This document shows, in pieces, positions 28,698 through 44,862 of a stretch of 64,000 nt of DNA. The first letter of the stretch is position 1. The number at the start of each line of letters is the position of its first letter. A program made the position numbers and the translations under genes. A model generated the notes under the pieces. It was not told where the DNA came from. It did not search any database and saw only the letters and a list, made by a program, of their open reading frames with translations. This stretch comes from Desulfarculus baarsii DSM 2075. GTDB lineage: Bacteria > Desulfobacterota > Desulfarculia > Desulfarculales > Desulfarculaceae. The stretch covers positions 2,817,501-2,881,500 of the forward strand of contig NC_014365.1 of the NCBI RefSeq assembly GCF_000143965.1, given 5' to 3'.

Positions 28698-28718
28698 ACC
28701 TCATTGCGGAAATCAGCA

Positions 28719-28931
28719 ATGCACAGCAGCCAAGCAAAAGATGCGCTGGCTCGATTGGTGGCGCGGCTTGACTCTGGCGGCACAATCGATTGGGTTCGTA
28801 AAACGTCATTCTTCACACGACAGGACGGATCGATTCTCCGCCAAGTAACCAGACCTGACGGCTCGATCATAAGCGAGGAGGATGTATCGGCATATGTGCG
28901 GAGAAATTCGGGCTCAGAATGCCACCAGTGA
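28719..28931 (+). CDS. Hypothetical protein upstream of an XRE regulator
   Basis: A 70-aa protein beginning MHSSQAKDALARLVARLDSG and containing DGSILRQVTRPDGSIISEED. I do not recognise the family. It is placed 21 bp after the antitoxin and overlaps the next HTH gene, so it may form a second small toxin-antitoxin-like pair with it. A TTG start at 28704 is also possible. Confidence 0.5.
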   Translation: MHSSQAKDALARLVARLDSGGTIDWVRKTSFFTRQDGSILRQVTRPDGSIISEEDVSAYVRRNSGSECHQ

Positions 28932-29208
28932 AGATGACATCCAACGACTGGCGGCTTTTCATCGCCGACTTGTGTCCGGGGAAGAAGAAACCTTTCCGGC
29001 GGAAGTCGCCGACCGGTTGCTGGCTGGCGAGCATCCTGTCCGGGTGCTGCGTTCCCATCGGGGCATGACCCTGCAGCAGGTAGCTGACGCCTGCGGCGTG
29101 ACCAACTCCCACATCTCCCAGATCGAAAAGGGCAAGCGATCCATGTCCACGGAGCTGCTGAAGAAGATGGCCGAGGCGCTCCGAGTTGACGCCGAACTGC
29201 TGCTCTAA
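28894..29208 (+). CDS. XRE-family HTH regulator or antitoxin
   Basis: A 104-aa protein with a C-terminal HTH_3 domain, GMTLQQVADACGVTNSHISQ followed by IEKGKRSMS. The N-terminal 60 residues have no known domain. The start at 28894 is preferred over an ATG at 28882 because the GAGGAGG site lies 12 bp upstream of the former and touches the latter. The pairing with the preceding small gene resembles a toxin-antitoxin unit. Confidence 0.75.
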   Translation: MCGEIRAQNATSEDDIQRLAAFHRRLVSGEEETFPAEVADRLLAGEHPVRVLRSHRGMTLQQVADACGVTNSHISQIEKGKRSMSTELLKKMAEALRVDAELLL

Positions 29209-29223
29209 GGATACCTTCCCGCC

Positions 29224-30411
29224 TCATCGCCCTTCCTCCAGCACTGCCTTCTCGCCCGTGAAGTCTTCCCAGCGCTTCACGGCGACATCGACGTATGCGG
29301 GGTTCAGCTCCATGGCCAGACAGGCGCGGCCGGTGATTTCGGCGGCGATGATGGTGGTGCCGGAGCCGGAGAAAGGTTCGTACACGGCCTGGCCCGGGCT
29401 GGAGTTGTTCTCCATGGGCCGCTTCATGCACTCGACGGGCTTCTGGGTGCCATGGATGGTGTCGGCGTCCTGACCCTTGGACGGGATGTTCCAGATCGTG
29501 ACCTGCTTGCGGTCTCCGTTCCAGTGGGCCTTGTCCTTGACCGCGTACCAGCAGGGCTCGTGCATCCAGTGGTAATGCCCCCGGGAGAGAACCAGACGTT
29601 CCTTGGCCCAGATGATCTGGGAGCGGATGCCGAAGCCGCAGGCGACAAGGCTTTCCGCGACCGTGGCCGCGTGTAGCGCCCCGTGCCAGACGTAAGCCAC
29701 ATCGCCGGGGAAGAGCGTCCAGGCCTCGCGCCAGTCGGCGCGGTCGTCGTTTAGGACCATGCCGGTGCGCTTGGTCTTCTGGCCGGACAGCGCCTCGTTG
29801 CGCCAGGCGGGATCGTATTCGACGCCATAAGGCGGGTCGGTGACCATAAGGTGCGGTCGGACGCCGGCCAACAATCTGTCCACGTCATCGGCGCTAGTGC
29901 TGTCCCCGCACATGAGACGGTGACGGCCCAGAATCCAGACATCCCCCGGTTTGCTTACTGGCTCTGCAGGAGTCTCGGGCACCTCGTCAGGGTCGGTCAG
30001 GCCATCGGTGGTCGGCTTGGTCAGCAGAGAGTCGATCTCGCCGGCGTCGAAGCCCGTGAGATTGACGTCAAAGGCCATGGCCTGGAGTTCTTCCAGTTCC
30101 AGCGCCAGGAGGTCCTCGTCCCAGGCTGCCCAATTGGCGGAGCGGTTGGCCAGCAGGCGGAATGCCTTCACCTGCGCGTCCGTCAGTTCGTCGGCCAGGG
30201 CCACGGGAACTTCCGTCAGGCCCAGCTTGCGGGCAGCCTTGAGCCGCAGGTGCCCGTCCACCACGGTGCCGTCGGACTTGGCCACCACCGGGATGCGGAA
30301 GCCGAATTCCCGGATGGCCGCGACCATGCGCTCGACTTGCTCGTCGTTCTTGCGCGGGTTGCGGACATAGGGAACAAGCCGCTCAATGGGCCAGGATTCG
30401 GTCTTCAGCAT
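29224..30411 (-). CDS. ParB-like domain fused to site-specific DNA methyltransferase
   Basis: A 395-aa protein. A ParB/sulfiredoxin-like N-terminal domain (ERLVPYVRNPRKNDEQVERM, then GHLRLKAARKLG) is joined to a beta-class methyltransferase with catalytic DPPYGVEY (about residue 187) and the SAM-binding FSGSGTT (about 348). Phages and plasmids often carry this fusion to methylate their DNA, usually N6-adenine. The start at 30411 (MLKTESW) is preferred because homology begins there. It overlaps the HNH gene by 7 bp. It may protect element A from the restriction enzymes in its own cargo or its hosts. Confidence 0.88.
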   Translation of the reverse strand: MLKTESWPIERLVPYVRNPRKNDEQVERMVAAIREFGFRIPVVAKSDGTVVDGHLRLKAARKLGLTEVPVALADELTDAQVKAFRLLANRSANWAAWDEDLLALELEELQAMAFDVNLTGFDAGEIDSLLTKPTTDGLTDPDEVPETPAEPVSKPGDVWILGRHRLMCGDSTSADDVDRLLAGVRPHLMVTDPPYGVEYDPAWRNEALSGQKTKRTGMVLNDDRADWREAWTLFPGDVAYVWHGALHAATVAESLVACGFGIRSQIIWAKERLVLSRGHYHWMHEPCWYAVKDKAHWNGDRKQVTIWNIPSKGQDADTIHGTQKPVECMKRPMENNSSPGQAVYEPFSGSGTTIIAAEITGRACLAMELNPAYVDVAVKRWEDFTGEKAVLEEGR

Positions 30412-30776
30412 GGGTTCGGTCCTGAGTGTGGTGTGCGCAGCCTGCCATGCAGGCGCTCGTGGCATTCGCGGCACAGGCTCATGAGGTTGCCGCTCGCATT
30501 GTTGCGGGGATTGCCGTCACGATGGTGGACCACTTCGGCCGCCCGGGCGCAGATGGCGCAGAGCGGGTCCCGTCTGAGCTTGAGATGCCGGACCCGCTGC
30601 CAGTGCGCGCCGTAGCCGCGTTTGGCCGCGTTTCCCCGGACTTTGTCCTGGGCGCTGCGGCGAAGAGCGAGAGCCTCATCCGCGAGGTGCTTGTGCTCTG
30701 GACAATACCCTCCGGCGTCAGTCGCCAGATTGCGGCAGCCCGGCTTGCGGCATGGTTTCGGCGGTCTTGGCGGCAT
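30405..30776 (-). CDS. HNH endonuclease
   Basis: A 123-aa HNH nuclease. The catalytic block VVHHRDGNPRNNASGNLMSL and the terminal CRECHERLHG are intact, and Cys pairs (CAIC...CREC) supply the structural zinc site. HNH proteins near terminases support DNA packaging in HK97-like phages. The ATG at 30776 has a GGGTGGGGG run just upstream. The 32-nt motif at 30892-30923 lies about 115 bp upstream and probably drives this gene and the methylase. Confidence 0.85.
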   Translation of the reverse strand: MPPRPPKPCRKPGCRNLATDAGGYCPEHKHLADEALALRRSAQDKVRGNAAKRGYGAHWQRVRHLKLRRDPLCAICARAAEVVHHRDGNPRNNASGNLMSLCRECHERLHGRLRTPHSGPNPC

Positions 30777-30891
30777 ACCCCCACCCGTCATTTTGCACGC
30801 GTAAGAATCTGGGGGCCCACCCGGTCTACGGGCCGAACCCACAGAGATTCGACCCGCCCCGGGCATCCCCCGAGGGTTTTCCCCTCTCTTG

Positions 30892-30923
30892 CATACATAC
30901 CGACGCCAAACCAAAAACGTCGG
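30892..30923 (-). promoter_or_regulatory. Shared 32-nt motif, copy 1 (upstream of HNH/ParB-methylase operon)
   Basis: On the minus strand this reads GCCGACGTTT, ten variable bases, then GTCGGTATGTAT. The same frame with exactly ten variable bases occurs at 34922-34953 and 42051-42082, each in the same orientation upstream of a minus-strand operon. The right part resembles an extended -10 box. A binding site for an element-encoded activator or sigma factor is the simplest reading. Confidence 0.65.
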
Positions 30924-30962
30924 CGTTGGGATGAAAATTTTTGCGCTTGATACGATTTTGGT

Positions 30963-30991
30963 TTGTCAGGATATCTTCCGTACATTATCTT
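30963..30991 (+). promoter_or_regulatory. Probable promoter of the DUF1778-GNAT operon
   Basis: TTGTCA at 30963-30968, a 17-bp spacer and TATCTT at 30986-30991, followed 29 bp later by the ATG of the antitoxin gene with an AAGGAGG site. The match is moderate, and autoregulation by the DUF1778 protein is expected. Confidence 0.5.
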
Positions 30992-31019
30992 CAGTGAAGA
31001 GAAGCAAGGAGGATTTCGA

Positions 31020-31298
31020 ATGTCGCCCACCACTCAGACGAAAACGGAACGGATCGACGTCCGGCTCAGTCCCTCATCGAAGGCGCTGTTGCAGGAAGCG
31101 GCCAAGGCGTCTCATAAAAACGTCAGCGAGTTTATTTTGGAGGCGGGGATTGTCGCCGCCAATCAGGCCTTGGCTGACCGACGGCTGTTCCTGCTGGACG
31201 AAGCTCGGTGGAAAGAGTTTCAGGAGGTACTGGATCGTCCTGTCCAGAAGAAGCCTCGCCTGAGCAAACTGCTGAACGAGCCTGGCGTTCTTGACTGA
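31020..31298 (+). CDS. DUF1778 (TacA-like) antitoxin
   Basis: A 92-aa ribbon-helix-helix antitoxin: TERIDVRLSPSSKALLQEAA gives the DNA-binding ribbon-helix, and the C-terminal half (EFQEVLDRPVQKKPRLSKLL) is the toxin-binding tail. An AAGGAGG site lies just before the ATG. The stop overlaps the toxin start (TGATG), so the pair is translationally coupled. It would neutralise the acetyltransferase toxin and repress its own promoter. Confidence 0.88.
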   Translation: MSPTTQTKTERIDVRLSPSSKALLQEAAKASHKNVSEFILEAGIVAANQALADRRLFLLDEARWKEFQEVLDRPVQKKPRLSKLLNEPGVLD

Positions 31299-31816
31299 TG
31301 GGTGGTCGGTTTGGTCCGGTCCACAAGCTTACGGCAGCGGATGAGGCAGGGGATTTCGATTGCGGCCAGCAGGAACTGAATCTGTTCTTGCAGCGCTATG
31401 CCCTTGTCAACCAGAGAGCCAACAGCGCCCAGACGTATGTGTCCTGCGTGGACGACGCTGTCGTCGGCTACTACAGCCTCTGTGTGGGCAGCGTCGGCTT
31501 TGATGAAGCGCCCCATCGGGTGGTAAAAGGGCTTGCCAGACATCGAGTCCCTGTCATGCTGCTGGCCCGCCTTGGCGTGGATCAGAGGTTTCAGCGTCAG
31601 GGGTTGGGCCGGGCCCTGCTCAAGGACGCCATCCTGCGCACCATGCAGGCGGCGGATATCGCCGGCATCCGTGCATTACTGGCGCACGCCAAGGACGAGC
31701 ATGCCCGGCAGTGGTATCTCTCCTGGGACTTCGAGCCCAGCCCCACGGACCCTTTTCACCTGTTTTTGCTCATCAAGGACATGCGTGCGGCGGGAAGGCA
31801 GGACTGCCTCACCTAG
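31298..31816 (+). CDS. GNAT-family (TacT-like) acetyltransferase toxin
   Basis: A 172-aa GNAT protein. The acetyl-CoA loop is seen as VDQRFQRQGLGRALLKDAIL and the C-terminal Tyr segment as WYLSWDFEPS. TacT-type toxins acetylate aminoacyl-tRNA and stop translation. Coupling to a DUF1778 gene makes the assignment firm. A hairpin terminator follows at 31828-31855. The pair probably stabilises the element, or acts in abortive defence. Confidence 0.88.
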   Translation: MGGRFGPVHKLTAADEAGDFDCGQQELNLFLQRYALVNQRANSAQTYVSCVDDAVVGYYSLCVGSVGFDEAPHRVVKGLARHRVPVMLLARLGVDQRFQRQGLGRALLKDAILRTMQAADIAGIRALLAHAKDEHARQWYLSWDFEPSPTDPFHLFLLIKDMRAAGRQDCLT

Positions 31817-31827
31817 TAAAGATACCT

Positions 31828-31855
31828 ACACTTCTTCATAAGTGTCGGGGTTTTT
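31828..31855 (+). terminator. Rho-independent terminator after the GNAT toxin gene
   Basis: The hairpin ACACTT/AAGTGT has a 6-nt loop and is followed by CGGGG and five T residues. It lies 12 bp after the toxin stop. The stem is short, so efficiency may be modest. Confidence 0.5.
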
Positions 31856-31949
31856 ATCAGAAGGACAACCAAACCATGATGATGCGTGTGCGCCTAACAC
31901 CTCGACGACCGCATTGGTATTTTTTCGTGCCAGAATGGAGGACAGGAGC

Positions 31950-32234
31950 ATGACACAACCTACTTCGTCGAGCCGCAGTACGAATATCATTATCCGGGTG
32001 ACTCCCGAACAGCGGGACCTGATCGACCAGGCCGCCTTGCTCAACAACAAGACCCGGGCCGATTTCATCCTCGAAGCGGCGACCAGGGCCGCGCAGGACT
32101 CCGTCCTCGATCAGGTGCTGTTTCCCGTCCCAGTCGAACAGTTCGAGGCGTTCCAGAGACTTCAGGAGAGCTCACCTGAACAGGATAAACGCTTGAGCGC
32201 CCTCATGGCACGTACGTCTCGCTGGGGGAAGTGA
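31950..32234 (+). CDS. Second DUF1778 antitoxin, without a toxin gene
   Basis: A 94-aa DUF1778 protein (TNIIIRVTPEQRDLIDQAAL then NNKTRADFILEAA). The ATG at 31950 has a GACAGGAGC site. Normally a GNAT toxin gene follows at once, but here the next 100 bp hold repeats and the end of the primase gene on the other strand. It may be an orphan antitoxin that guards against other TacT toxins, or a remnant pair. Confidence 0.8.
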   Translation: MTQPTSSSRSTNIIIRVTPEQRDLIDQAALLNNKTRADFILEAATRAAQDSVLDQVLFPVPVEQFEAFQRLQESSPEQDKRLSALMARTSRWGK

Positions 32235-32251
32235 TCCCTGCAATATCCCTT

Positions 32252-32366
32252 TTGGACGCATTGGACAGATTGGACGCATCTTACGGTTGAAGCCCTACGC
32301 GCATGCGCGCGCACGCGCGCGTGGCCGATTAACGGTTTCATCTGTCCAATCCGTCCAACCGTCCAT
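32252..32366. other. Candidate replication origin (iterons flanking a GC alternating tract)
   Basis: Three TTGGAC iterons with a 9-bp period stand at 32252, 32261 and 32270. Inverted copies GTCCAA stand at 32344 and 32353, with a degenerate GTCCAT at 32361. Between them is an alternating GCGCATGCGCGCGCACGCGC-type tract (about 32298-32322). The right-hand copies lie in the last codons of the primase-helicase gene. P4-type primases bind iterons near their own gene, so an origin is likely but not shown. Confidence 0.5.
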
Positions 32367-34572
32367 CGTGTTCGACCTTGACGGCGATACCCCGGAATAT
32401 CCGCTGGGTCGAGCCGAACACCGTCCTTCTGTCGGCGATGAACTCACGCTTGGCCAGGTTCGCACTGAATGCCTTTGTGCTGCCGGCGTGCTCTCCGTTG
32501 CGGTCCGCGTAGTTCTTCCACGACTCGAAGAGGCGGGCCGTGGTTTCCCATGATGCCCTCCCAATTTCGCAGCATTCCTCGATCCACTGCCCGAAGAGGT
32601 CCTGCTCGTCGAAATAGGCGGCCGTGGCCTCCTTCACGCTCTCCGGCCGCAGGAGCCCGTTCTCCCGCCAATCCAGACAGCCTTCGATCATCCAGCGCAG
32701 GATGGCCGGATACTCGGACCGCAGCTTGTCCTCCAGGCGCTTGTCCGGGCTCGCGGGCTTGTGGACGAATGGGATGATGTTGAAGCGCCTGCGGGCGGCC
32801 TCGTCCACGTTGCGGAGCACGGGCTTGTGATTGCCGACGATCAGGAGCTTGAACTGGGGCGTGTAGGTGAAGAAGTCCTGCCGCATGAAGCGGGCGCTGA
32901 TCTTGTCGCCGCCGGTGAGCTGCTTGATGCGGCTCTCGGCCCAGGGACGGCCTTCCTCGGTCTCGGAAACGCTGACCAGCCTGGCCCCGCGCAGCATGGC
33001 CAGGTCGGTGGGGTGGCGGTCGCCCTGGCTGGCCGTGAAGGTGTCCATGGCCGCCGTGGCGGCGTAATCGCCCAGGATGTTGGTCAGGGTGTTGAGGAAC
33101 ACGGATTTTCCGTTGCCGCCGGGGCCGTAGATGAAGAAAAGGGCGTGCTCGGAGATGTCGCCGGTCAACGCGTAGCCGGCCACTTGCCGCATGAAGCGCT
33201 GCAACATGGCATCGCCCTGGGTCGCCTCGTCCAGAAACCGCAGCCAGAGCGGGGCGTCGGAAGAACGCGCCGGAGCCACAGCGGCAAGCTTGGTGATGTA
33301 ATCCTCGCGGCGAGCCGGACGCAAGGTCCCTGTGCGCAGATCCACGACGCCGTCCGGAGTGCCCAGCAGATGGAGGTCGGCGTCCCATATTTCGCTGGTC
33401 ACGGCGAAGGCGCGGTCGGTCTGCGCGAATCGCTCTACTGCACCGGCCGTGGCGGCCTTGGACAGCGCGGCCGCGACCTTCTTGTTGTCCATGCCGGCGG
33501 CGGCCTTCCGGCAGAGTTGCCTGGCCCAGGCGAAAGCCAGTCTGGTCTTTTCCACCCGCCAGTGGCTGCCGGTCCAGACGAACCACGCGCCGGTCTCATG
33601 GCAGTAGCGCAGATCGTCCTTGTGCTCCCTGGCGAAGAGGAGCGCGATGGCGTCTTCGGTAGCGGGGCAGGCGTCGTTCGAGTCATCCGGCTTTGCCGGA
33701 TCGAGCGTCGCTGCGGCTTCGACCAGACGGAGCAGTTCCTCGCGGCTGTGGCCGGCCTTCTTCCAGTCCACGATGTCGCCCTTGGGCGGCAGGCCGGGCA
33801 GTTCCACGATCTTGACCGAGACGGCCACAGACAACAGTGCCTTGGCCACCCTGCGGGCGTGATTGCGCCCTGGCGTGTCGTTGTCCGGCAGGATGACCAC
33901 CTGCTTGCCCTGGAAGTACGGATTGTACTCCTCGCGCCACTTGCCCGCGCCCATGGGGTTGCAGGTGGCGGCCAGTTCCCATGCGACGAGTTCCAGGACC
34001 TTCTGCTCGCCTTCGGCGATAAAGACGGTCTCGGCCCGCAGCATTTCAGGAAGGCGAAACGGCACCAACCGCACGCCCTTGACGGAGTTGATGCGTTTAT
34101 CGGTCGCGTCCAGATGCCACTGGCGGATGGCCTTGCGGCAGCCTGGTGTCTCGTAGCGGTCCACGGCGAATAGGAGCCGGCCTGCCTCATCCTCGTAGCG
34201 AAAGGTGGCGACGAGGTTTTCGGGCCGGACAGGCGTCTCCGGCAGGTCCTTGCGCTTGGGCTTTGGCGTGACAGGCGCAAGCCCGATCTCCTCGGCGATC
34301 ATCCGGGCGGCCTTGGCCTGGCCGAGTTCTTCTTGGGCCGCGACCAGGGAGATGACATCACCGCCGCTCTCGCCGGTCGCGAAGTCTGACCAGACGCCGG
34401 TTTCGGTGTTGCAGCTGAACGACTTCCCAGGGTTGCCATGGATGTCGCCGGCTACCATTTCCCTGCCTTGGCGTTTGGCCTGAGGCAACCTGCCTTGCAG
34501 AAAGCCCGGGTTGGCCAGGGCCGCCTCGTTGATGCGCCTGAAGTCAAGGTCGGTTCCATGTCCGCCGCTCAT
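32338..34572 (-). CDS. P4-type primase-helicase
   Basis: A 744-aa replication protein. Residues about 1-100 resemble a primase zinc-region substitute. A TOPRIM segment has FIAEGEQKVLEL (about 185) and ILPDNDTPGRNHA (about 225). A D5_N-type domain leads to the SF3 helicase with Walker A GPGGNGKS near 486, and a C-terminal winged-helix follows. Such proteins prime and unwind at their own origin and are typical of satellites (P4, PICIs) and some phages. It shares a base with the next upstream gene and is preceded by motif copy 2. Confidence 0.9.
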   Translation of the reverse strand: MSGGHGTDLDFRRINEAALANPGFLQGRLPQAKRQGREMVAGDIHGNPGKSFSCNTETGVWSDFATGESGGDVISLVAAQEELGQAKAARMIAEEIGLAPVTPKPKRKDLPETPVRPENLVATFRYEDEAGRLLFAVDRYETPGCRKAIRQWHLDATDKRINSVKGVRLVPFRLPEMLRAETVFIAEGEQKVLELVAWELAATCNPMGAGKWREEYNPYFQGKQVVILPDNDTPGRNHARRVAKALLSVAVSVKIVELPGLPPKGDIVDWKKAGHSREELLRLVEAAATLDPAKPDDSNDACPATEDAIALLFAREHKDDLRYCHETGAWFVWTGSHWRVEKTRLAFAWARQLCRKAAAGMDNKKVAAALSKAATAGAVERFAQTDRAFAVTSEIWDADLHLLGTPDGVVDLRTGTLRPARREDYITKLAAVAPARSSDAPLWLRFLDEATQGDAMLQRFMRQVAGYALTGDISEHALFFIYGPGGNGKSVFLNTLTNILGDYAATAAMDTFTASQGDRHPTDLAMLRGARLVSVSETEEGRPWAESRIKQLTGGDKISARFMRQDFFTYTPQFKLLIVGNHKPVLRNVDEAARRRFNIIPFVHKPASPDKRLEDKLRSEYPAILRWMIEGCLDWRENGLLRPESVKEATAAYFDEQDLFGQWIEECCEIGRASWETTARLFESWKNYADRNGEHAGSTKAFSANLAKREFIADRRTVFGSTQRIFRGIAVKVEHDGRLDGLDR

Positions 34573-34850
34573 CAGGCTGCCTCGGAGATTATGTTCCCGA
34601 CCGCGAGGCGAACGACGGTGAAAGCATCGTCGCCAAACTCCCTGGCCAGGAATCCGGTGAAGACCTGGGCGATGGTCCGCCCCACGGCCTTGCCGTCCTC
34701 GATGGTGCAGACCCGTCCCTTGAGTTGGAAGCAGGCATCGAGGCGGATGTCGGTTCTGCCATGGATGCTCTCGGCGGCGAGCACGGCCAGCAACAGGGAG
34801 TCTTCGACGCCGGCCATGTCCACATGCTCGGCGAAATGGAACTTGATCAT
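34572..34850 (-). CDS. Hypothetical protein upstream of the primase
   Basis: A 92-aa protein beginning MIKFHFAEHVDMAGVEDSLL, with the segment HGRTDIRLDACFQL. I do not recognise a family. The ATG has a GGAGGG site upstream, and the stop overlaps the primase start by one base, so it is co-translated with the replication protein. It is the first gene downstream of motif copy 2 and may be a replication accessory or capsid-unrelated early protein. Confidence 0.65.
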   Translation of the reverse strand: MIKFHFAEHVDMAGVEDSLLLAVLAAESIHGRTDIRLDACFQLKGRVCTIEDGKAVGRTIAQVFTGFLAREFGDDAFTVVRLAVGNIISEAA

Positions 34851-34921
34851 GACAGTCCCTCCGGTAGCTGGATGTTCACATGAAGAGGGCCGGACACCGG
34901 AGCGGCATCCGGCCCTATGGG

Positions 34922-34953
34922 ATACGTACCGGCGTGACGCCGGAAACGTCGGC
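34922..34953 (-). promoter_or_regulatory. Shared 32-nt motif, copy 2 (upstream of the primase operon)
   Basis: On the minus strand this reads GCCGACGTTT, ten variable bases, GCCGGTACGTAT. It lies just after the stop of the sigma-like gene and about 70 bp before the start of the 92-aa gene that begins the replication operon. The variable part here contains a CCGGCG/CGCCGG palindrome, which the other copies lack. Confidence 0.65.
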
Positions 34954-34954
34954 G

Positions 34955-35539
34955 CTAGAGGTAGTCTTCCAGCCCAGAGTCCTTGAATGCGGCGCGGACC
35001 TTGTCGATGATGCCGTACAGGCTCGATCTGGGGATGCCGGTTTCGCGCGAGACGTCAGTGATGGAGTCGCGCATCAGCCTCTGGCACAGGTCACGCAGCT
35101 TGGGCGGCAACTGATCCACGACCGAACGCACGTCGATGCCCAGGTCCCGCAGTTCATCGGATGAACGGCTCTGTCGCCCCGTGCGCAGCAGGTAGTCGTC
35201 CTGGTCAAAGGTTTCCGAGCGTTCGCAGCGCACGCCGTCTTCATCCTCGATGTGATCGTTCAGAGAGAACGCCTGAAGCCGGTAATCGCGCAGACCGGCC
35301 TTGCGCTCTTCGATGAGGGTCGCGGCGCGGTGCTCCACGACGCGCGCGACGAAGGTGTTGTTTTGAGCCCGGGCGGGATCGTATTTGGGCTGGCGACGCA
35401 GCAGGTCGAGCAGCAGTTCCTGCTCCAGGTCCTCGCGGTCCGCAGCGGAGAAGCCGGGGTGGGCGGAGAGTTGCTTGGCTTTGAAGGTGATCAAACGGAC
35501 TGTGTATTCGTCGATGCCGTGGTAACGGTTCTGGGACAT
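34955..35539 (-). CDS. Sigma-70-like regulator
   Basis: A 194-aa protein resembling small sigma factors. A region 2-like segment (ADREDLEQELLLDLLRRQPK then NNTFVARVVEHRAATLIEER) is followed by a region 4-like HTH, PKLRDLCQRLMRDSITDVSR then GIPRSSLYG. The central 50 residues are unlike standard sigma factors. The ATG at 35539 has a GAGGAGAG site. Proteins of this type occur in prophages and satellites, where they may direct polymerase to element promoters. The three 32-nt motifs are its natural candidate targets. Confidence 0.7.
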   Translation of the reverse strand: MSQNRYHGIDEYTVRLITFKAKQLSAHPGFSAADREDLEQELLLDLLRRQPKYDPARAQNNTFVARVVEHRAATLIEERKAGLRDYRLQAFSLNDHIEDEDGVRCERSETFDQDDYLLRTGRQSRSSDELRDLGIDVRSVVDQLPPKLRDLCQRLMRDSITDVSRETGIPRSSLYGIIDKVRAAFKDSGLEDYL

Positions 35540-35698
35540 TGTGCTCTCCTCGAGGCCGAGGAGGAGCGCTGTGGATGTCGGCCGGACCGGTCCGCATGAA
35601 AAAGCGGAGGTGTTGCGAGATCGCCGGATCGGCGACACCCACAACGACCTCCGCTTCGCGGCCAGTCGATTGTCTGGTGTGTTGTTGGACCGCCTCAG

Positions 35699-36019
35699 CT
35701 AGGCGGCGTCTTCCACATTCATCTTGAAGGGCAGGCCGTGCTTGACCTCGAGCAAACGCACCACGCCGTCGCGGATGCGGTCGAAGTGCGAGAAGAGCTC
35801 GATGACCTGGGCCTTGAGCTGGAAATCCGTGAGATCGGTCTCGGGGCGCGGAGCATTGTCCCCGCCGAACTTGATCTCGCGGACGATGGTGGCCGTTTCG
35901 AGCACCGGCTCGCCGTCCTTGAGGCGGAGGCCTTCGATGCGGCCGAAGTTGATGGTCTGCAGGCGAAGCAGAAGCTGTCGCCGGGCCGGGGAGAGGGAGG
36001 ACTTTGAAGAGGATGCCAT
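35699..36019 (-). CDS. Small hypothetical phage-type protein
   Basis: A 106-aa protein beginning MASSSKSSLSPARRQLLLRL and containing INFGRIEGLRLKDGEPVLE. Similar small proteins occur in the early regions of proteobacterial prophages, with no known role. The ATG at 36019 has an AAGGAGAAAG site. It starts a run of small regulator genes read toward 34955. Two palindromes upstream (36061-36081 and 36135-36157) may control it. Confidence 0.6.
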   Translation of the reverse strand: MASSSKSSLSPARRQLLLRLQTINFGRIEGLRLKDGEPVLETATIVREIKFGGDNAPRPETDLTDFQLKAQVIELFSHFDRIRDGVVRLLEVKHGLPFKMNVEDAA

Positions 36020-36060
36020 AAACTTTCTCCTTGAAAGGGGAAAAGTCATGGCACGATCGG

Positions 36061-36157
36061 TTGGTAACACCATGCTACCAATGAGAACGCCGGATCGCGC
36101 CTTCATTGGGGAACGCGCTACATCCGGCATAGCCGATGCTACATATCGCGTAGCATC
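36061..36157. promoter_or_regulatory. Two operator-like palindromes between the QueC-like gene and the early genes
   Basis: TTGGTA/TACCAA with a 9-bp spacer stands at 36061-36081, and GATGCTAC/GTAGCATC with a 7-bp spacer at 36135-36157. Neither is followed by a T-run in either direction, so they look like repressor sites and not terminators. They fill the 147-bp gap upstream of the 106-aa gene. Confidence 0.45.
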
Positions 36158-36166
36158 TACGAAAAG

Positions 36167-38257
36167 TTAGTTATTTTGAGTAGATGTTGATGACCAAGTC
36201 AAACCGTCACGAGGGACATAGCTCAAGGCATGACCTAAATTCAGGATGGGTTTTTGAAGGTGATCTGATAGATGCTTGTCATATTGTTTGATTTTCTTCA
36301 GGGCACGGCGAATCGCATTTCCGACTCGATTCCGGACCTTGTTACGGTCATCGCCGAGCTTACGAATCGCACCGCCAAGCCCCTGGGCATTCGACAATTC
36401 TGACTCGATCCACCCCTTCTCGTTTGCCAGAGCTTCAATTTTTCCGAGATCATTGTTTGCCTGGGCCTTTTCAAGATCATTGTCAATCTCATGCAACCTA
36501 GTGCGGTAGGAACGAACGGCGTCATCGTCTAGAACAGGCCCCGCATCAGACTGTCCGAGAACACTTACCCCTTCGTCGAAAGGTGTTTCTCCCGGACAAA
36601 CTGATGTGTAAAGCTCGTTCTTTGTCATTCTTCTCACCATTACATCAAGTTCCGATGCTGAAAATGTTGACCCTGGATTATCCAAAAGGATCTGAAGGTG
36701 ATAAAAACCAATGTCTGGAGTGTAGATCTTTTCTTCATTGCCATCATATCGAATCGTCCAGCACTGTCCCCTGATGCAGATATAATTGTTTGTTGGCTCG
36801 TGGGTTGGGCATGTGTTCGAGTCCCCTGGGTCAGCTTGCACTCCACCGGAATCACAAACTAACCGTAAAAGGCAATTTGCAGGTAGTTGTCGTTTTCTGA
36901 TTGCGCTTCTATTTTGTGCTATGGCGTCATCGACGACCTTTGTAATGCACTTGGCGTGCCTATGATGCAGTTCATATAAACGCAGCGCGGTGGAGTCTGG
37001 CGAGCCGTTCAGATGATTGAGAACCCGTGTGGCCTCTCCGTAACTTCCAAAAAATTCCAGGGCGGTCATGTCGGCAACTTCGTTAGCTGTTTCCACATAC
37101 GCTGCCAACATGGCTTTTGGTTCGCCTTCATCTCGTTCACCAGTCAGTAGATCAACCCCATAAGCTTCTTTTGGGTCATGTTCCTGGGCGTCTGCGGCAA
37201 GAACTGCAAACCTTCGGTCAATGCATTGTGAGCATGTCCCACAATGGGTATTTAACTTTGTCATTGCCCATGTGTGGGTACATGATGTGGAAAATTTGAT
37301 GGTGTCAGCGCACCCTGCTTTGACGATGTCGCTTACGACCTCCGTTTTGGTTTTCCAGATAAATGGGTTCTCTACAGTAAATGGTTGACCAGAGAGCGTT
37401 GAAAAAATATTTGCGAATCCATTAATGACTTGTGGATGGGTGGTTCGCGTAGCCCTTGCCCCCACAACTTGGGCTGAGATAGGAAGGTTAAAACTGATAA
37501 CACCGTTTTCATAGAACCGAATTCTACGAAGATTGAACATCTGGGCAACTGTAGCTCCCAGAGCCGCATACAAAAATGAGCGGCTTCGCTGTGTGTATTC
37601 CCGTCCGAGAAATTTGGATTTGTTGATAGAGACTGGGATGTGCAGGGGCTTGTGAACTGCCGCCGAGGACAGGAGATCCAGTAATCTTCTATGCCTTCGG
37701 TTGAACTTATGCGTCGCCTTGTGAGTTACCATCACGATTCTTCGTGAATTTATGACGGCTTCCTCAATTGCTCCTCCCAGTGAATCTAGCCCTCCAGAAA
37801 AAAGCATAACCTCCTCGGGCGGATCGACATTGAGCTCTAGATGCTTTTGCGTCAGTGGCCCATTTTTCAATTCCACAAAATCGAAATAATATTCATCTTC
37901 TGAAAGGAAGCTGAGGGTTTCGACCAACTGGTCTTTCAGAGGTGAAGAATTCCACAGGTCAGGATTTCTGACTGCAATTCTAAAAAATAGTGTCCGTCGC
38001 CAGTTCTCACCGAAATTATCAACACCGTCGCCGCCTCTTGTAATGGCCTGATCCGCACAGTACACATAGGTAGCTATTTCAATCAGGTCGTGGAAAAAAG
38101 ATGGTATGTCTCTAAGGAGCTGACTGCGAATGTCGCTGATATGCAAAGATACATTTTCTCCCTTTCCCCACAGGTGCAGAGAAAGAGGCTTCTTGTCATC
38201 GAACGGAAGTCTGTCGCCCTTAACATCACCGCAAAGAATAGAGCGCTCATTAGACAT
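36167..38257 (-). CDS. QueC-like enzyme with extended C-terminal region
   Basis: A 696-aa protein. Residues about 150-360 are a QueC (7-cyano-7-deazaguanine synthase) domain: the PP-loop is LFSGGLDS (152-159), and the zinc site is visible as Cys-Thr-His followed by HCGTCSQCIDRR near 323-346. A 150-aa N-terminal extension precedes it. The C-terminal 200 residues (about 490-690) look like a winged-helix and helical module seen in bacterial signalling proteins (NAIRRALKKIKQYDKHL near the end). No queD, queE or queF gene is near, so tRNA queuosine synthesis is unlikely. QueC-like enzymes also occur in anti-phage systems (QatC of Qat, Cap9 of type IV CBASS). It overlaps its partner by 8 bp, and the cassette is AT-richer than its neighbours. 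Confidence 0.8.
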   Translation of the reverse strand: MSNERSILCGDVKGDRLPFDDKKPLSLHLWGKGENVSLHISDIRSQLLRDIPSFFHDLIEIATYVYCADQAITRGGDGVDNFGENWRRTLFFRIAVRNPDLWNSSPLKDQLVETLSFLSEDEYYFDFVELKNGPLTQKHLELNVDPPEEVMLFSGGLDSLGGAIEEAVINSRRIVMVTHKATHKFNRRHRRLLDLLSSAAVHKPLHIPVSINKSKFLGREYTQRSRSFLYAALGATVAQMFNLRRIRFYENGVISFNLPISAQVVGARATRTTHPQVINGFANIFSTLSGQPFTVENPFIWKTKTEVVSDIVKAGCADTIKFSTSCTHTWAMTKLNTHCGTCSQCIDRRFAVLAADAQEHDPKEAYGVDLLTGERDEGEPKAMLAAYVETANEVADMTALEFFGSYGEATRVLNHLNGSPDSTALRLYELHHRHAKCITKVVDDAIAQNRSAIRKRQLPANCLLRLVCDSGGVQADPGDSNTCPTHEPTNNYICIRGQCWTIRYDGNEEKIYTPDIGFYHLQILLDNPGSTFSASELDVMVRRMTKNELYTSVCPGETPFDEGVSVLGQSDAGPVLDDDAVRSYRTRLHEIDNDLEKAQANNDLGKIEALANEKGWIESELSNAQGLGGAIRKLGDDRNKVRNRVGNAIRRALKKIKQYDKHLSDHLQKPILNLGHALSYVPRDGLTWSSTSTQNN

Positions 38258-39032
38258 CCGCCTGCGCTCCTTCCTTGAGTTCTGCCACGATTTTATTCAT
38301 TGCCACATGGGAAAAGCCAGCGGCATCTTTTCTCGAAATCCCTTTTTTTTCCCAGTTGGTCTTTGAAAACCAGCCCCCCGAAAATTCCTCAATTATTTTA
38401 GAGGTTTCGCGGCTGTGGAGTCTTAGCGCTACGGTAAACTCACCTTGCTGGGCAAGTGTACGGAAACGCCTTCCTTCCCCGAGATGGTGGGAGACCCCTT
38501 TGGCGACAAAATAGCCAAGACATTTATTTGTTAAGCGAGCGAAAAAATCTCTGGCGAATATGCTGAATTGTTTATTTGTCGCAAGTTTGGAGAAAGCATC
38601 CTTAACATCGTCCGAGGTCGTTCCGAACAAACCTTGCGTTCGGCTTCCGATGGTCTGTGCCATCGTTTCGGAGGCAGCAATCTGGGCCATTTCACCCAGA
38701 TCCGTCCTCCCGCCGTTATTGGTCAGTTTTTTGTCAATAGCATCGGAGAATGCCCCCAGTATCTCCATGAGGCCAGGAGAATCCGATACATCCAAGCCGA
38801 CGTTTTGAAGGGCTTGTCCAAAGTCGTCACTTCTCGCTGCAAGGGGCAACTGGGTCAGGAGCCATATTGTCTCTACTAAACCTTTGTCTTCCGCAGCCAG
38901 TTTAAAGCCCTGCTCTGCAGCAGCGATCGTTGCAGTCGCAATTTGAGCAGTACCGGCTCCACCCTCAATTAGGGCAACTACCTGTTGCCATTTTCGAGTC
39001 CTGGGTAGATTACCTAATCTTACGTGTCCCAT
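38250..39032 (-). CDS. Unknown partner of the QueC-like enzyme, Met-Gly start
   Basis: A 260-aa, mostly helical protein of no family I recognise. It starts MGHVRLGNLPRTRK, so Gly would be exposed after methionine removal. Its start has an AGGG-type site. It overlaps the QueC-like gene by 8 bp and no other gene joins the pair. In Qat and type IV CBASS, QueC-like enzymes act on a partner protein whose N-terminal Gly is modified with a deazaguanine group, as I recall. A Met-Gly start in the same-operon partner would fit that scheme, with this protein in the QatB-like role. Sequence similarity to QatB was not tested. Confidence 0.6.
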   Translation of the reverse strand: MGHVRLGNLPRTRKWQQVVALIEGGAGTAQIATATIAAAEQGFKLAAEDKGLVETIWLLTQLPLAARSDDFGQALQNVGLDVSDSPGLMEILGAFSDAIDKKLTNNGGRTDLGEMAQIAASETMAQTIGSRTQGLFGTTSDDVKDAFSKLATNKQFSIFARDFFARLTNKCLGYFVAKGVSHHLGEGRRFRTLAQQGEFTVALRLHSRETSKIIEEFSGGWFSKTNWEKKGISRKDAAGFSHVAMNKIVAELKEGAQADV

Positions 39033-39104
39033 TTACGCCTACCCTCAACGAGAAAAGACCTACATTAGATCAGGCTTTCTTATATGCACATCCCAAGTGG
39101 GTGG

Positions 39105-39524
39105 TCAATAGTTCTTGTTTGGGGCCTTTTGTGTTTCAGTCCATAGCTTACGTTGCCGATGCCAGTGTGGAATGGCGGCGATGGCTCGGACTTCCTTTTC
39201 TTTGATGGGATCGCGACCTGCGGTTGTCTGGGGCAGGAAAAGGATCTCCTCCTGAATATCAGGAGCCAGAAGGGTGAGGTCCATGATTTGGGTAATCCGG
39301 GCGCGGGTCACGTACCCGAGTCGGGCCAGGTCGGCGAAATCGCGCACCTCGCCCCGGTCGATCATGTCCTGGAAGCGCATGGCTAGGGCCAGCAGTCGAG
39401 AGACCCGTGGAACCCTCCCCGGTGATGTTTGTTGATCCTGCTGTTGGCCCGCTCCCTGGCGCGAGCCGTGCGTAGCCCGCCTGGGGGCCAGTGTGAAGCG
39501 CACCTCAAGTTTCGATTCATCCAT
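39105..39524 (-). CDS. Recombinase-associated HTH protein
   Basis: A 139-aa basic protein. After a low-complexity N-terminus it has FADLARLGYVTRARITQIMD, an HTH-like segment, and a C-terminal HRQRKLWTETQ. Proteins of this type are found directly downstream of DUF2924-linked serine recombinases. It begins 22 bp after the recombinase stop and is probably co-transcribed. A role as recombination directionality factor is possible from position alone. Confidence 0.65.
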   Translation of the reverse strand: MDESKLEVRFTLAPRRATHGSRQGAGQQQDQQTSPGRVPRVSRLLALAMRFQDMIDRGEVRDFADLARLGYVTRARITQIMDLTLLAPDIQEEILFLPQTTAGRDPIKEKEVRAIAAIPHWHRQRKLWTETQKAPNKNY

Positions 39525-39546
39525 TCGAGATAATCCTCCTCTTCGT

Positions 39547-41106
39547 TCAAGCGGCCGTTCTCTGGCACAGTTGCTTGAGCCCCTCGCTCCTGAAGGTAAC
39601 CGTCACCGACTGGTCCCGTCCGTCGAACCCCACTCGTTCGACGAGAAGGTGAATGATTTTGGCCTGCTCCTTGGAGGACAGCGAGTTCCACACCTCGTCA
39701 AAGCCTGCCAATGCCTGCGTCAGGTCGTTCTCTTTGACGGTCGTCTTGCCCAGCACGATGATCTCCTCTTGGATGGCCGTCATGCGCTGCTCGGTGGTCC
39801 GAATCCTCTCCTGCAAGTCGGCCAGGCGGTCGGTCGCGATTTCCGAGGCCCCGGCCGGCAGTGCTCCGCCCAGGAGTTTTCGAACCTGGGCATGGAGCCG
39901 CTTGAGTTCCCGCTCCGCTGCTTTCCGTTCCATCTCCAGCTCATGCAGGCGGGCTTCGGCTTGCTCCGTGGCCTTGGTGAGGGTGGTCGACAAGACCGCC
40001 GGGTTGGCGCCCAGCCCTTTGATGTGCTGCACCACCGCGCTCTCAATGTCGTAGGCGTTGACGGATTTCGTGGGGCATTTCGCCCACCCTCGCTGCTGGG
40101 CTGTCTGGCAGACGTAATATCGGTAACTCTTGCCGTTCTTTTTATTGGCGCAGGAGTGCGTCATCCCCGTGCCGCAGGGTGTGCAGAAGATCAGCCCCTT
40201 GAGCAGCGCGCCGTACTTGTTGCGAACGAGGGTGCCGCCGTTGAGGCGGTTGCGCCGCAGAATTGCCTGCACCTTCTTCCAGGTCTCCACGTCCACAATG
40301 GCTTCGTGCTCGCCTTCGTAGGTGGTCCCCTGGAACACCACCTTGCCCGTGTAGATGGGATTGGTCAGCAGTCGGAAGAGCGTGCTCTTGTTGAACGGCT
40401 TCCCGCCGCGCTCTTTGCCCTTGCGCGTTACCCAACGCTTGTTGTTCCAGCCTCGGCGTTCAAGCTCCTGCGCCGAGGGGAGAAGCGACTCCAGTTCCAG
40501 GTAGAGTTGGAAGATCGCCCTGACTCGTGCGGCTTCGTCCTCGTTGACCTCCAGCCGGCCGCCGCCCTCGGCCACGTCGTACCCCAGGACCGGCATGCCG
40601 CCGACCCATTTGCCTTTTCTGCGCGCGGCCCACATCTTGTCTTTGGTCCGCTCGGCGATGATCTCGCGTTCGAACTGGGCGAAGGAGAGCAGGATGTTCA
40701 GGGTCAGTCGGCCCATGGAGTGGGTGGTGTTGAATTGCTGGGTGACCGAGACGAAGCTCACACCGTGACGATCGAAGATCTCCATGAGGCGCGAGAAGTC
40801 GAGCAGGGAGCGGCTGAGGCGGTCCACTTTGTAGACCACGACGCAATCGATGCCGCCGGCCTCGATGTCCGCCATGAGGCGCTTGAGCGCGGGGCGCTCC
40901 AGATTGCCGCCGGAGAAGCCGCCGTCGTCATATCGATCCGGCAAGCATGTCCAGCCCTCGTGGCGCTGGCTGGAGATGTAGGCCTCGGCCGACTCCCGCT
41001 GGGCGTCCAGGGTGTTGAATTCCTGCTCCAACCCCTCCTCGGTGGACTTGCGGGTATAAATGGCACAGCGGATTGCACCAGAGTTTGTTTTGACGGGATT
41101 GGTCAT
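39547..41106 (-). CDS. Large serine recombinase (integrase)
   Basis: A 519-aa recombinase. The resolvase domain begins with RCAIYTRKST, with Ser21 as the likely nucleophile, and includes VVYKVDRLSRS. A Recombinase domain follows, with NKRWVTRKGKERGGKPFNKS, then a zinc ribbon with CTPCGTGM and SCANKK, then a C-terminal coiled coil. The start at 41106 overlaps the DUF2924 stop by 4 bp; an upstream in-frame ATG adds a region with no similarity. It would integrate and excise element A. It stands 1.2 kb from the right repeat. Confidence 0.93.
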   Translation of the reverse strand: MTNPVKTNSGAIRCAIYTRKSTEEGLEQEFNTLDAQRESAEAYISSQRHEGWTCLPDRYDDGGFSGGNLERPALKRLMADIEAGGIDCVVVYKVDRLSRSLLDFSRLMEIFDRHGVSFVSVTQQFNTTHSMGRLTLNILLSFAQFEREIIAERTKDKMWAARRKGKWVGGMPVLGYDVAEGGGRLEVNEDEAARVRAIFQLYLELESLLPSAQELERRGWNNKRWVTRKGKERGGKPFNKSTLFRLLTNPIYTGKVVFQGTTYEGEHEAIVDVETWKKVQAILRRNRLNGGTLVRNKYGALLKGLIFCTPCGTGMTHSCANKKNGKSYRYYVCQTAQQRGWAKCPTKSVNAYDIESAVVQHIKGLGANPAVLSTTLTKATEQAEARLHELEMERKAAERELKRLHAQVRKLLGGALPAGASEIATDRLADLQERIRTTEQRMTAIQEEIIVLGKTTVKENDLTQALAGFDEVWNSLSSKEQAKIIHLLVERVGFDGRDQSVTVTFRSEGLKQLCQRTAA

Positions 41107-41624
41107 TTGCGCCCCTTGTTTTTCTTCGTGGCGGCCTTGTTCAGACCGAAGAAGACGAAGCCGTTCCATTTGCCGCCGGTTACCTCGTGGGCAATGGCCG
41201 TGAGCGACTTGTAACGGCGATCCTCGAACTCGAAACCCTCGTCCAGCACCCTGACCACGATGTCCCGCCCTTTGTATTCCCGGTGAAGGAGCACGCCGGG
41301 GAGGGGCACTCTGGGATCATGGGCTGAGGACAAGCGGCTTTTGACCGATCGCGCTCGGGCTTCGGCCGAGCCGGGCTTCACCGGATCGCGCGGGGCGCGC
41401 ATTCTGAGGTCAGCGTCCCGGGCCAGCTCCTTGGCCCGCTTGCGAGCCCGTTCCGACAGGTCACCCTCGGCCAACGCCTGAATGCGCCAGGCGATGCGCT
41501 TTTTCAGGAAGGGTTTGTTGTTGGCACGGGTCTCCTCGTCGAAGACATCGAGGTACTTCTCCTTCAGCTCGCCCACGGTCATTCGCTCGAGGCTTTGGAT
41601 TTCCTTGTACGTCTCAGGGTTCAT
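41103..41624 (-). CDS. DUF2924 protein, recombinase partner
   Basis: A 173-aa basic protein with the DUF2924 hallmarks: LERMTVGELKEKYLDVF at the start and ITGGKWNGFVFFGL-like residues (EVTGGKWNGFVFFGL) near the end, preceded by LHREYKGRDIVVRVL. DUF2924 genes almost always precede large serine recombinases, overlapping them as here. It may help the recombinase bind or choose direction; the function is not established. Confidence 0.88.
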   Translation of the reverse strand: MNPETYKEIQSLERMTVGELKEKYLDVFDEETRANNKPFLKKRIAWRIQALAEGDLSERARKRAKELARDADLRMRAPRDPVKPGSAEARARSVKSRLSSAHDPRVPLPGVLLHREYKGRDIVVRVLDEGFEFEDRRYKSLTAIAHEVTGGKWNGFVFFGLNKAATKKNKGRK

Positions 41625-42400: not shown

Positions 42401-42847
42401 TCAATTGCACGGGACTTTTATACAAGTTCCGTTTGTTTTCAACCACCCACTCACAAGTCTCGCAACCTCATCGGGGTCGGCACCTTTGCCTTCTAGCGAA
42501 CACTCCCAGACCACCGCCACCCTCCAGCCCGCATCCTGGAGAGCTTCGATGTCCCGTCGATCTCTGGCGATGTTTTCGTCGAACTTCTTGCGCCAGAAAT
42601 CCACGTTGGTTCCGGGCGTCGTGGTCGCCTTGCAGCCGTGGCGGTGCCAAAAACAGCCATGGACGAACAAAGCCGCCTTGAACCTGGGGAAGACGATATC
42701 CGGAGATCCCGGCAACCTCTTGTCGTGAAGCCGATATCGCAACCCGATTTTGTGCAGCGACCGTCGAAGCTTCATCTCCGGACCGGTGTCTTTTTGACCG
42801 ACCTTGGACATGATTCTCGAACGTGTCGTTCTGTCCACGGTATCCAC
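42401..42847 (-). CDS. vsr: Vsr-type very short patch repair endonuclease
   Basis: A 148-aa Vsr enzyme with the full family signature: VDRTTRSRIMSKVGQKDTGPE at the start, PGSPDIVF with the catalytic Asp, and VHGCFWHRHGC with the zinc-binding Cys/His. Vsr nicks T:G mismatches that arise when 5-methylcytosine deaminates. It is the last gene of the DISARM operon, whose first enzyme is a 5-cytosine methyltransferase (59304-60419), so the pairing makes sense. It starts 26 bp after the GHKL gene. Confidence 0.92.
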   Translation of the reverse strand: MDTVDRTTRSRIMSKVGQKDTGPEMKLRRSLHKIGLRYRLHDKRLPGSPDIVFPRFKAALFVHGCFWHRHGCKATTTPGTNVDFWRKKFDENIARDRRDIEALQDAGWRVAVVWECSLEGKGADPDEVARLVSGWLKTNGTCIKVPCN

Positions 42848-42873
42848 TGCCGCTCATCCTCGGTGCCCGCCGC

Positions 42874-44862
42874 TCATATCCTGTCGACGATTCTTTCCAG
42901 CTTGTCGAGCTGCTTGCTCTTTTTCAGGAACTCGGAATACGCCTCCTGTGCTCCCCGGATGAGGGAGTCGTAGTGAACGATTCTGCTGCCCGGCGAAATT
43001 GCCGTCATGGACGATTTCAGTCGTTCCGGGTTGCTCCCTTCCTCGTCGATGGGCTCACCGAGAACAAAAACTACCTCGATGTTAGGAGTCGCGTCGCCCT
43101 GGGCGAGCAGGATTTTCTTGAGCTTGTCCACATAGGTCTGCCCTTGCTCCTGCAGTTCGAGGAGCTTCATTTTCCGTTTGACCCGCTTCAGCTCGACGAT
43201 GATGTGCTTTCCGGCCATCGTCCGATAGGCGATGTCGACACGCCCGAGTTTTTCCTTTTCGGTCATGTCCTGCGTGAGCACGCCGTCGGTGGTGAGTCTC
43301 GTCTCCATCACCTCGCTGGCGGTCGCTCTTTCCCATGCCGGGTCGAGCAGCCATAGATGATCGAACAGATACTTTTGCAGGACACTTTCCTTGGCGTTGT
43401 CGTCGGCTATTCCCTGAAAATGCTTGATGGCATCAAGGCGGGATTTAACGATATCCCGGTAAAGCGAAGCCTCTAGGGAGTCCCTGTCCGCAAGAATGGC
43501 CAGGAGCTTGTCTATGTCGTGAACATGCGCGGCCAACTCTTCGGCCGAGCCCCGCAATTTCATGCGCTCGAACGCCAGGATGCCGTGCCGATACATGAGC
43601 TTCCGGTCCTCGTCCTGGTCGACGGGCAACGCACTGAGCTTCGCGATCAGGGTTTCGGCGCTTTTGCGGAAGCCTTCCGGTAAGGACTCCAACCATTCGG
43701 CCAGGGCCGGTGATGTCTCCTTGGCCTTTTCCACCTCGTGGAGTCGCCGCCATTCCGTCCAGCGCTTCTCGACCTGCGTGAGTTGCTTTCTGAGGAAAGC
43801 GATCAATTGAACATATCGTGGATCGTCTTCCTGAACTCGCTGTCTGTCGCTCGTGGCTATATCCGGTTCATCGTCCGCATCGAGGAAGTCGGCCTCGATT
43901 TGCCCGGTGAGGTATTTCGTGTAGAGGCGACCGTCGTTCAACTTGTCGAGGATGTTTTCGTGAAAGAGCCGACCTCTCGCGAAAACGACGATGCTGTTCA
44001 GGTTGCCCGCATCGTCGCTGTCGAGTTGTTTCGGCAAACGGGCGGTACCGATCCATCCGGTGACTGACCAGTCCCCATCCCATGCGTCGAGCCGATCCGA
44101 GAGGGCCTCCCGCTCCAACAACTGTCCTGCGGACGAAATATCCGGCTCTTCGTCACCGAAACTCCAAAGGAACTGGACCATGGGCAAGTCCCCCCGATCC
44201 GCCGTGCTGATCGGATGTCCATTGATCAGAATCTTGAATCCGTGCGCTTCGCCGACGACGGAAAAGCGACGAGCGAGTCGTTTTCTCAAGGCCGTGGCCC
44301 CGCGTCCAAGACGCTGGCGCTTGATATCCTTCAACAGAATCGCGGTCCCGTTGGTGACTTGTATTTCCTCCCGAGGCAGCTTTTCCGGGCTGTAAAAAGG
44401 CTCCTTGTCCTGGACCGACTTGTGAATTCCGTCGATCGTCATTCTCAGTCCATGGGACTCACCGTTCTTTGCCGAGTGAACTTCGATCGTGTTGGCTATG
44501 GAGAACAGAGACAGCTTGCCAAGGCCCTTTCTGCCCATAACGGGGCGTCCCTTGGCGGTCGTGCGACCGGTCTCCTGATCCTCGTCCCGGCGACGATAGC
44601 CGACCCGGAGGTACTTGGTGTTCATATCCTCAATGGACATTCCGATACCGTCGTCCTTGATCTCGATGAACTTTCCGTCAGGATCTATACCGATCTCGAC
44701 GTTCTCAGCGTCGGCATCCCACGCGTTCGCGACCGCTTCGGTCAACACTGCGGCGATGTTGCTGTAAAGATTGATCCCGAGATGATCCAGGACGTTCAAA
44801 TCCACCGTCATCCTGTAATGGTCGTTGCCCGCCATGCCGTCCGTTCCGATTCCCTCGTTCAT
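42874..44862 (-). CDS. GHKL (Hsp90-like) ATPase fused to a PD-(D/E)XK nuclease
   Basis: A 662-aa protein. The N-terminal ATPase has Asn46 in EAVANAWDA, DDGIGM (70-75) and GRKGLGKLS (110-118), the three Bergerat-fold motifs. The middle is long and helical. The C-terminal segment RVDIAYRTMAGKHIIVELKR near 540-560 has the D...E-x-K of a PD-(D/E)XK nuclease. MutL-like and MORC-like ATPases with such domains occur in restriction and defence loci. It overlaps drmC by 4 bp and is not part of canonical DISARM. Confidence 0.82.
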   Translation of the reverse strand: MNEGIGTDGMAGNDHYRMTVDLNVLDHLGINLYSNIAAVLTEAVANAWDADAENVEIGIDPDGKFIEIKDDGIGMSIEDMNTKYLRVGYRRRDEDQETGRTTAKGRPVMGRKGLGKLSLFSIANTIEVHSAKNGESHGLRMTIDGIHKSVQDKEPFYSPEKLPREEIQVTNGTAILLKDIKRQRLGRGATALRKRLARRFSVVGEAHGFKILINGHPISTADRGDLPMVQFLWSFGDEEPDISSAGQLLEREALSDRLDAWDGDWSVTGWIGTARLPKQLDSDDAGNLNSIVVFARGRLFHENILDKLNDGRLYTKYLTGQIEADFLDADDEPDIATSDRQRVQEDDPRYVQLIAFLRKQLTQVEKRWTEWRRLHEVEKAKETSPALAEWLESLPEGFRKSAETLIAKLSALPVDQDEDRKLMYRHGILAFERMKLRGSAEELAAHVHDIDKLLAILADRDSLEASLYRDIVKSRLDAIKHFQGIADDNAKESVLQKYLFDHLWLLDPAWERATASEVMETRLTTDGVLTQDMTEKEKLGRVDIAYRTMAGKHIIVELKRVKRKMKLLELQEQGQTYVDKLKKILLAQGDATPNIEVVFVLGEPIDEEGSNPERLKSSMTAISPGSRIVHYDSLIRGAQEAYSEFLKKSKQLDKLERIVDRI

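Follow-up and report, generated by a model that had tools for sequence, protein, structure and literature searches.

A two-gene QatC cassette with a Met-Gly partner in Desulfarculus baarsii, a probable Qat-like anti-phage unit

A gene for a QueC-like enzyme that overlaps a gene for a small protein beginning Met-Gly, with no queuosine genes beside it, raises the question of what the enzyme acts on and what the pair does. We analyzed such a cassette in a 64-kb stretch of the Desulfarculus baarsii DSM 2075 genome (64,000 nucleotides, hereafter the window). An earlier note on this DNA had proposed that the pair may be a stripped-down or new immune unit, based on protein deazaguanylation and carried by a satellite.

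The gene pair and its surroundings

Both open reading frames described in the earlier note are present, and they overlap by 8 nt on the minus strand (38250-38257; Table 1). A GAGGG placed like a Shine-Dalgarno sequence supports the Met-Gly start of the partner. Chance can be excluded as the source of the pair because 82 intact homologous pairs occur elsewhere.

Table 1. Features of the cassette, in window coordinates
Feature	Position	Strand	Basis
QatC-type protein, 696 aa	36167..38257 (stop codon included)	-	QatC profile and structure matches
Extra C-terminal module, residues ~471-696	36170..36847	-	Strands, helix pair and coiled helices (model)
QatC C-terminal extension, residues ~362-470	36848..37174	-	Matches QatC structure as far as residue 457 of QatC
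QueC/PP-loop core, residues 146-361	37175..37822	-	Pfam QueC and structural matches
Zinc site C326, C339, C342, C345	37223..37282	-	Invariant in 67/67 homologs
TRTTHP, residues 270-275, QatC-type substrate-pocket residues	37433..37450	-	Replaces QueC Tyr/Asp
PP-loop SGGLDS, residues 154-159	37781..37798	-	Conservation in 67 homologs
QatC N-terminal extension, residues 1-145	37823..38257	-	Aligns from QatC residue 2
Partner protein, 260 aa, Met-Gly start	38250..39032	-	Open reading frame; AlphaFold2 model all-helical, QatB-like
N-terminal motif MGHVRLGNLPRTRKW, with Gly2 as proposed acceptor	38988..39032	-	Conservation in 66 sequences
Shine-Dalgarno-like GAGGG	39042..39046	-	Sequence; 9 nt 5' of partner ATG

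Scans with the partner identified 71 loci in bacterial genomes of many phyla and 17 on viral contigs; a relative of the partner was also found on a Leptospira plasmid. Altogether, the analysis covered 88 loci, drawn from bacterial genomes, viral contigs, and a plasmid, and at least 80 intact relatives of the pair were recovered across many bacterial phyla. In nearly all 88 loci a QatC-like gene lies directly 3' of the partner, usually with an overlap of 4 to 14 nt. Homologs of QatA and QatD were found neither in the window nor at any of the 88 loci (on a given side, about 60 of them include 3 kb or more of flanking sequence), using profiles that recovered all seven control operons. Thus, the absence of a KAP ATPase and a TatD nuclease reported earlier holds for the window. 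So do the absence of a CD-NTase, none being present among the scanned neighbors and the partner being predicted as all-helical and QatB-like, and that of nearby queuosine genes, as the closest canonical QueC is ~540 kb away.

The cassette is bordered on one side by a large serine recombinase with DUF2924, and on the other by genes for a sigma-like protein, primase, terminase, head protease, and major head protein. Similar neighbors recur in viral contigs and in Mesorhizobium, and other relatives, from many phyla, adjoin restriction-modification (RM) genes or sit on a plasmid. The region 22485-41624 resembles a phage, carrying genes for an integrase, primase, terminase, protease, and head proteins. 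Its scanned open reading frames include no tail gene, so the element may be a satellite that carries a capsid; a head-tail connector-like open reading frame stands apart (61315-61914). Of the earlier proposal of an immune unit on a satellite, the phage-like element is supported, the immune role is probable, and the satellite is possible. Two further regions flank the cassette: one carries DISARM genes, a BbrUII-type enzyme, and Vsr, and the opposite one carries a type I RM system. The first of these regions (42401-60419, minus strand) is a defense island with Vsr, a BbrUII/HgiDII-type GHKL restriction enzyme, DrmC, DrmB, helicases, an Eco57I-type methylase, an Mrr-type nuclease, and a C5 methylase, a DISARM-like set. 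The second (3276-19151, minus strand) encodes a Fic protein, a DUF4011/REase_MTES helicase, and HsdR, HsdS, and HsdM of a type I RM system, into which a BRO-N gene and a PDDEXK_3 open reading frame are inserted.

A QatC-type enzyme with a swappable C-terminal module

The 696-aa protein matches the QatC models of PADLOC (E 2e-49) and NCBIfam (E 1e-55) and QatC in the PDB (E 1e-28), with an NCBIfam score of 189 that lies below the equivalog cut-off of 280. Its AlphaFold2 model superposes residues 3-469 on the whole of Pseudomonas aeruginosa QatC (9y01_B; Z 32.1, 407 residues). The N- and C-terminal extensions noticed earlier are therefore genuine, and ~225 residues without a counterpart in QatC come after the second of them. 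The core matches QueC (3bl5, Z 12.7) and Cap9 (9nto, Z 12.0), and the C-terminal extension corresponds to the part of QatC on which QatB docks (PMC13279940). QatC signature residues are kept across 67 homologs. The PP-loop is intact, as the earlier note had it (S154, G155, G156, and D158 in 67/67, S159 in 66/67), as are the four zinc cysteines. In the substrate pocket, position 270 is Thr in 35 homologs and Ser in 32, and position 272 is Thr in 64 and Ser in 3; by alignment to PDB QatC these are T278 and T280 (numbering via this alignment and PMC13279940). With both extensions, the PP-loop, the zinc site, the Thr/Ser pocket, and TRTTHP all present, the enzyme is QatC-type. Canonical QueC was considered and set aside: the protein scores 22.5 bits against TIGR00364, where the cut-off is 150.3. 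Free preQ0 synthesis was likewise rejected, on this score and because the host owns a separate QueC.

The C-terminal part of these QatC proteins is modular. Pfam searches of the 67 QatC proteins identified a DpnII-MboI nuclease in 21, Trypsin_2 in two, and single cases of a TIR domain and of a response-regulator DNA-binding domain. Every DpnII/MboI-type module with a complete end retains the nuclease ExK motif. Clustering of the C-terminal segments revealed more types without a name, one of them the window's own, with 33 members, and several relatives have winged-helix-like C-termini. One relative on a Rhodobacteraceae plasmid (CP049029.1, locus coordinates 5968-7224), cut short on its N-terminal side beside an IS3 element, also ends in a winged-helix-like segment. 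When the tree is built from only the QatC core, the TIR and protease forms branch within the nuclease clade, so modules were exchanged on a constant core. The unit is thus better described as compacted than as stripped down, the word used earlier, because its QatC bears a fused module that is swapped among relatives. No Pfam model matches the window's module, an unnamed domain at 36170-36790. The same type of module also occurs behind response-regulator/guanylate cyclase, alpha/beta-hydrolase, and TPR proteins (L110-L119), a distribution that suggests a regulatory or output role.

The D. baarsii genome encodes a canonical QueC, a PTPS/QueD, and a QueE-like protein, all far from the cassette. 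A QueC over the cut-off is missing from 18 of the 45 host genomes examined. Six of these 18 (the hosts of L034, L066, L074, L075, L083, and L088) also show no PTPS, and their best QueE matches, at E 7e-7 or weaker, are not convincing; these hosts are metagenome-assembled genomes (MAGs) that may be incomplete, with no completeness given. Together with the altered pocket, these gaps speak against simple use of 7-carboxy-7-deazaguanine, but they are suggestive only, because most hosts are MAGs. Fibrella and Spirosoma hosts have PTPS and a QueE-like protein, and a canonical QueC was not found in them; the search may have missed it, or their queuosine pathway may be unusual.

The partner, its fold, and its second residue

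Searches of sequence and profile databases (PDB, Pfam, NCBIfam, PADLOC) returned no match for the partner, nor did the QatB model NF041924. Its profile is not significantly similar to seven QatBs (hhalign probability 2.7%). The AlphaFold2 model, built from an alignment without one row from the plasmid collection, has a pLDDT of 86.8 and is all-helical, with a low-confidence N-terminal tip (residues 2-5 below 50, i.e., floppy). Foldseek found no match to this model at E <= 0.001, QatB included; the likeness to QatB was seen by VIA-align only. There, QatB (9y01_A) matches with Z 11.4 over 198 residues at 11% identity, to be read knowing that the model is a predicted helical bundle and that chance alone can bring such bundles to Z near 13. 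The second QatB chain of the QatB-QatC complex follows at Z 11.1, and the next, unrelated chain at Z 6.4. We take the predicted QatB-like fold as real because the match is clear of other chains, covers the domain, and involves the very protein that partners the adjoining enzyme. The comparison with QatB proposed earlier thus divides, with no significant profile similarity and a predicted fold that is QatB-like.

The partner's N-terminus has the consensus MGHxRLGxLPxTRxW. Only seven alignment columns are invariant in 66 sequences, M1 and G2 among them, and H3, R5, G7, L9, P10, and W15 are at least 90% conserved. Looking for homologs without the glycine, as the earlier note advised, we found that residue 2 is Gly in 82/82 intact pairs and residue 3 is His in 81, with an ATG start in 79 and GTG in three. 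Two viral loci found later likewise start Met-Gly-His. The pattern for scanning bacterial genomes was taken from the partner C-terminus, so Gly2 was not selected for.

Four relatives lack the QatC catalytic core, and three of them have lost Gly2. A viral contig (L022; IMGVR_UViG_3300028883_000054, 7602-8707) encodes an intact 257-aa phage-borne partner that starts Met-Arg-His, followed by a 110-aa reading frame that matches only the QatC C-terminal extension; both frames are open. On another viral contig (L024), ~50 partner residues remain, starting Met-Asn-His. An orphan partner (G051) has Arg at position 2, with no start there, and a truncated remnant (L067) retains the Gly. Loss in 3/4 core-less relatives versus 0/82 intact pairs gives a Fisher p of 4e-5, uncorrected for relatedness; the nearest relatives of the three fall in different parts of the family. 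This comparison provides independent evidence that Gly2 is important only when the enzyme is there as well. The first of these pairs is possibly a decoy against the defense unit.

A proposed mechanism and known systems

We consider it probable that the cassette protects against phage as a two-gene Qat-like unit: QatC would use ATP to acylate Gly2 of the partner, and the fused module would provide the output. Observed in its favor are the gene pairing, the identity of the QatC, the predicted QatB-like fold, the invariance of Gly2, its loss together with the catalytic core, the swapping of modules, and the absence of QatA and QatD. We infer that a complex forms, which reaction takes place, what triggers the unit, what output the window's module gives, and the defense phenotype. 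The partner would dock on the QatC core so that its floppy N-terminus enters the active site, and removal of Met1 would expose Gly2. The PP-loop would adenylate a carboxylate, possibly a 7-deazaguanine acid, which would be joined to Gly2. This modification, either made or sensed upon infection, would arm the unit. The response would come from the module fused to QatC, which in relatives may act as a nuclease, NADase-type TIR, or protease and in the window may be of a signaling or nucleic-acid-binding type. Such fusion may replace separate QatA and QatD genes.

How closely this chemistry follows Cap9, which modifies the N-terminus of a CD-NTase with a deazaguanine (PMC11996544), is a narrower question within the acylation model. 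Transfer of host 7-carboxy-7-deazaguanine, exactly as in Cap9, would suit the QueC-family fold and the canonical QueC, PTPS, and QueE-like protein of the host. We regard it as doubtful, given Ser/Thr in place of the Tyr/Asp base-recognition pair and the six host MAGs, possibly incomplete, without QueC over the cut-off, PTPS, or a convincing QueE. Alternatively, the Met-Gly N-terminus could be a pseudosubstrate plug that is displaced rather than modified on infection, with QatC making a diffusible small molecule. QatC activity has not been reconstituted and its product is not known (PMC13279940), and the pocket is unlike those of QueC and Cap9, both points in favor of a plug. Plugging as such does not require Gly, and the invariance of Gly2 with a start codon fixed directly before it, together with the analogy to the proven Cap9 chemistry (PMC11996544), makes the plug improbable.

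Other readings place the function outside immunity or outside catalysis. The pair could regulate a phage or satellite, with the C-terminal module controlling transcription of the element and QatC setting its state; winged-helix-like C-termini, the module shared with response-regulator/cyclase and TPR proteins, and the phage-like element with its adjoining sigma-like gene all fit this idea. The nuclease, TIR, and protease modules argue against it, as do the relatives from many phyla that adjoin RM genes or are plasmid-borne, and we think it quite unlikely. Least probable is a toxin-antitoxin-like pair in which the partner merely restrains a fused effector. Overlapping genes with the partner first and effector-type modules would be expected of such a pair, but simple neutralization leaves the conserved PP-loop, zinc site, and Gly2 unexplained.

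The family bears on two questions about Qat, namely what QatC attaches to QatB and how phage is stopped (PMC13279940). It supplies natural two-gene units without QatA and QatD. It also joins the enzyme-partner core to modules whose activities can be read out (TIR, nuclease, and protease), so that QatC activation can be assayed directly, e.g., as NAD loss. A more speculative extension, which we hold to be rather unlikely, is that these loci form a widespread unnamed immune class. In it, QatC and interchangeable effectors (nuclease, TIR, protease, or DNA-binding) would share one protein, switched by a group other than 7-carboxy-7-deazaguanine on the N-terminal Gly of a QatB-fold partner, and phages would carry core-less, Gly2-mutated decoys.

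The closest known relative is the QatB-QatC core of the qatABCD anti-phage system (Gao 2020; PMC13279940). Like it, the window has a QatC with both extensions, PP-loop, zinc site, and remodeled Thr pocket, and a Met-Gly partner with a predicted QatB-like fold whose gene precedes and overlaps that of QatC. Unlike it, the cassette lacks qatA and qatD, its QatC has the extra swappable module, and its partner begins MGHxRLGxLPxTRxW, whereas QatB has MGTS, a long disordered tail, and no sequence similarity. Type IV CBASS also pairs a QueC-fold enzyme with a Met-Gly protein, and the model for both is modification of the N-terminus; it differs in its CD-NTase, to which the partner's fold is unrelated and none of which was seen here, and in keeping the Tyr/Asp pair where this enzyme has Thr/Ser at both positions. 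Canonical QueC, the preQ0 synthase, shares the core fold and zinc site, but the window's enzyme is far larger, is without the Tyr/Asp pair, and has no queuosine genes nearby. An operon on a Bradyrhizobium japonicum plasmid (L104; CP126019.1, 555-6308) encodes a CHAT-domain protein, a Met-Gly partner, a 446-aa QatC, and an ASCH-domain protein. It resembles the cassette in its partner followed by a QatC homolog, but that partner, seen only once in the plasmid collection, is a different protein with a Gly-rich tail, and the CHAT domain is a separate gene instead of a fused module.

In the open-license literature we found no description of a two-gene, effector-fused QatC family. Only about one third of QatC neighborhoods include qatA and qatD (PMC13329287), which leaves room for two-gene families such as this one. 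Although its mode of action would be that of QatB-QatC, the unit does not count as a qatABCD system, as qatA, qatD, and (by sequence) QatB were all searched for and not found. The pair of QatB and QatC is sufficient for protection against lambda, and defense is lost when QatB carries G2D or the PP-loop is mutated (PMC13279940). Since these two proteins already constitute a minimal defense unit, the novelty suggested earlier holds for a variant and not for a new principle: the cassette is a variant of QatB-QatC.
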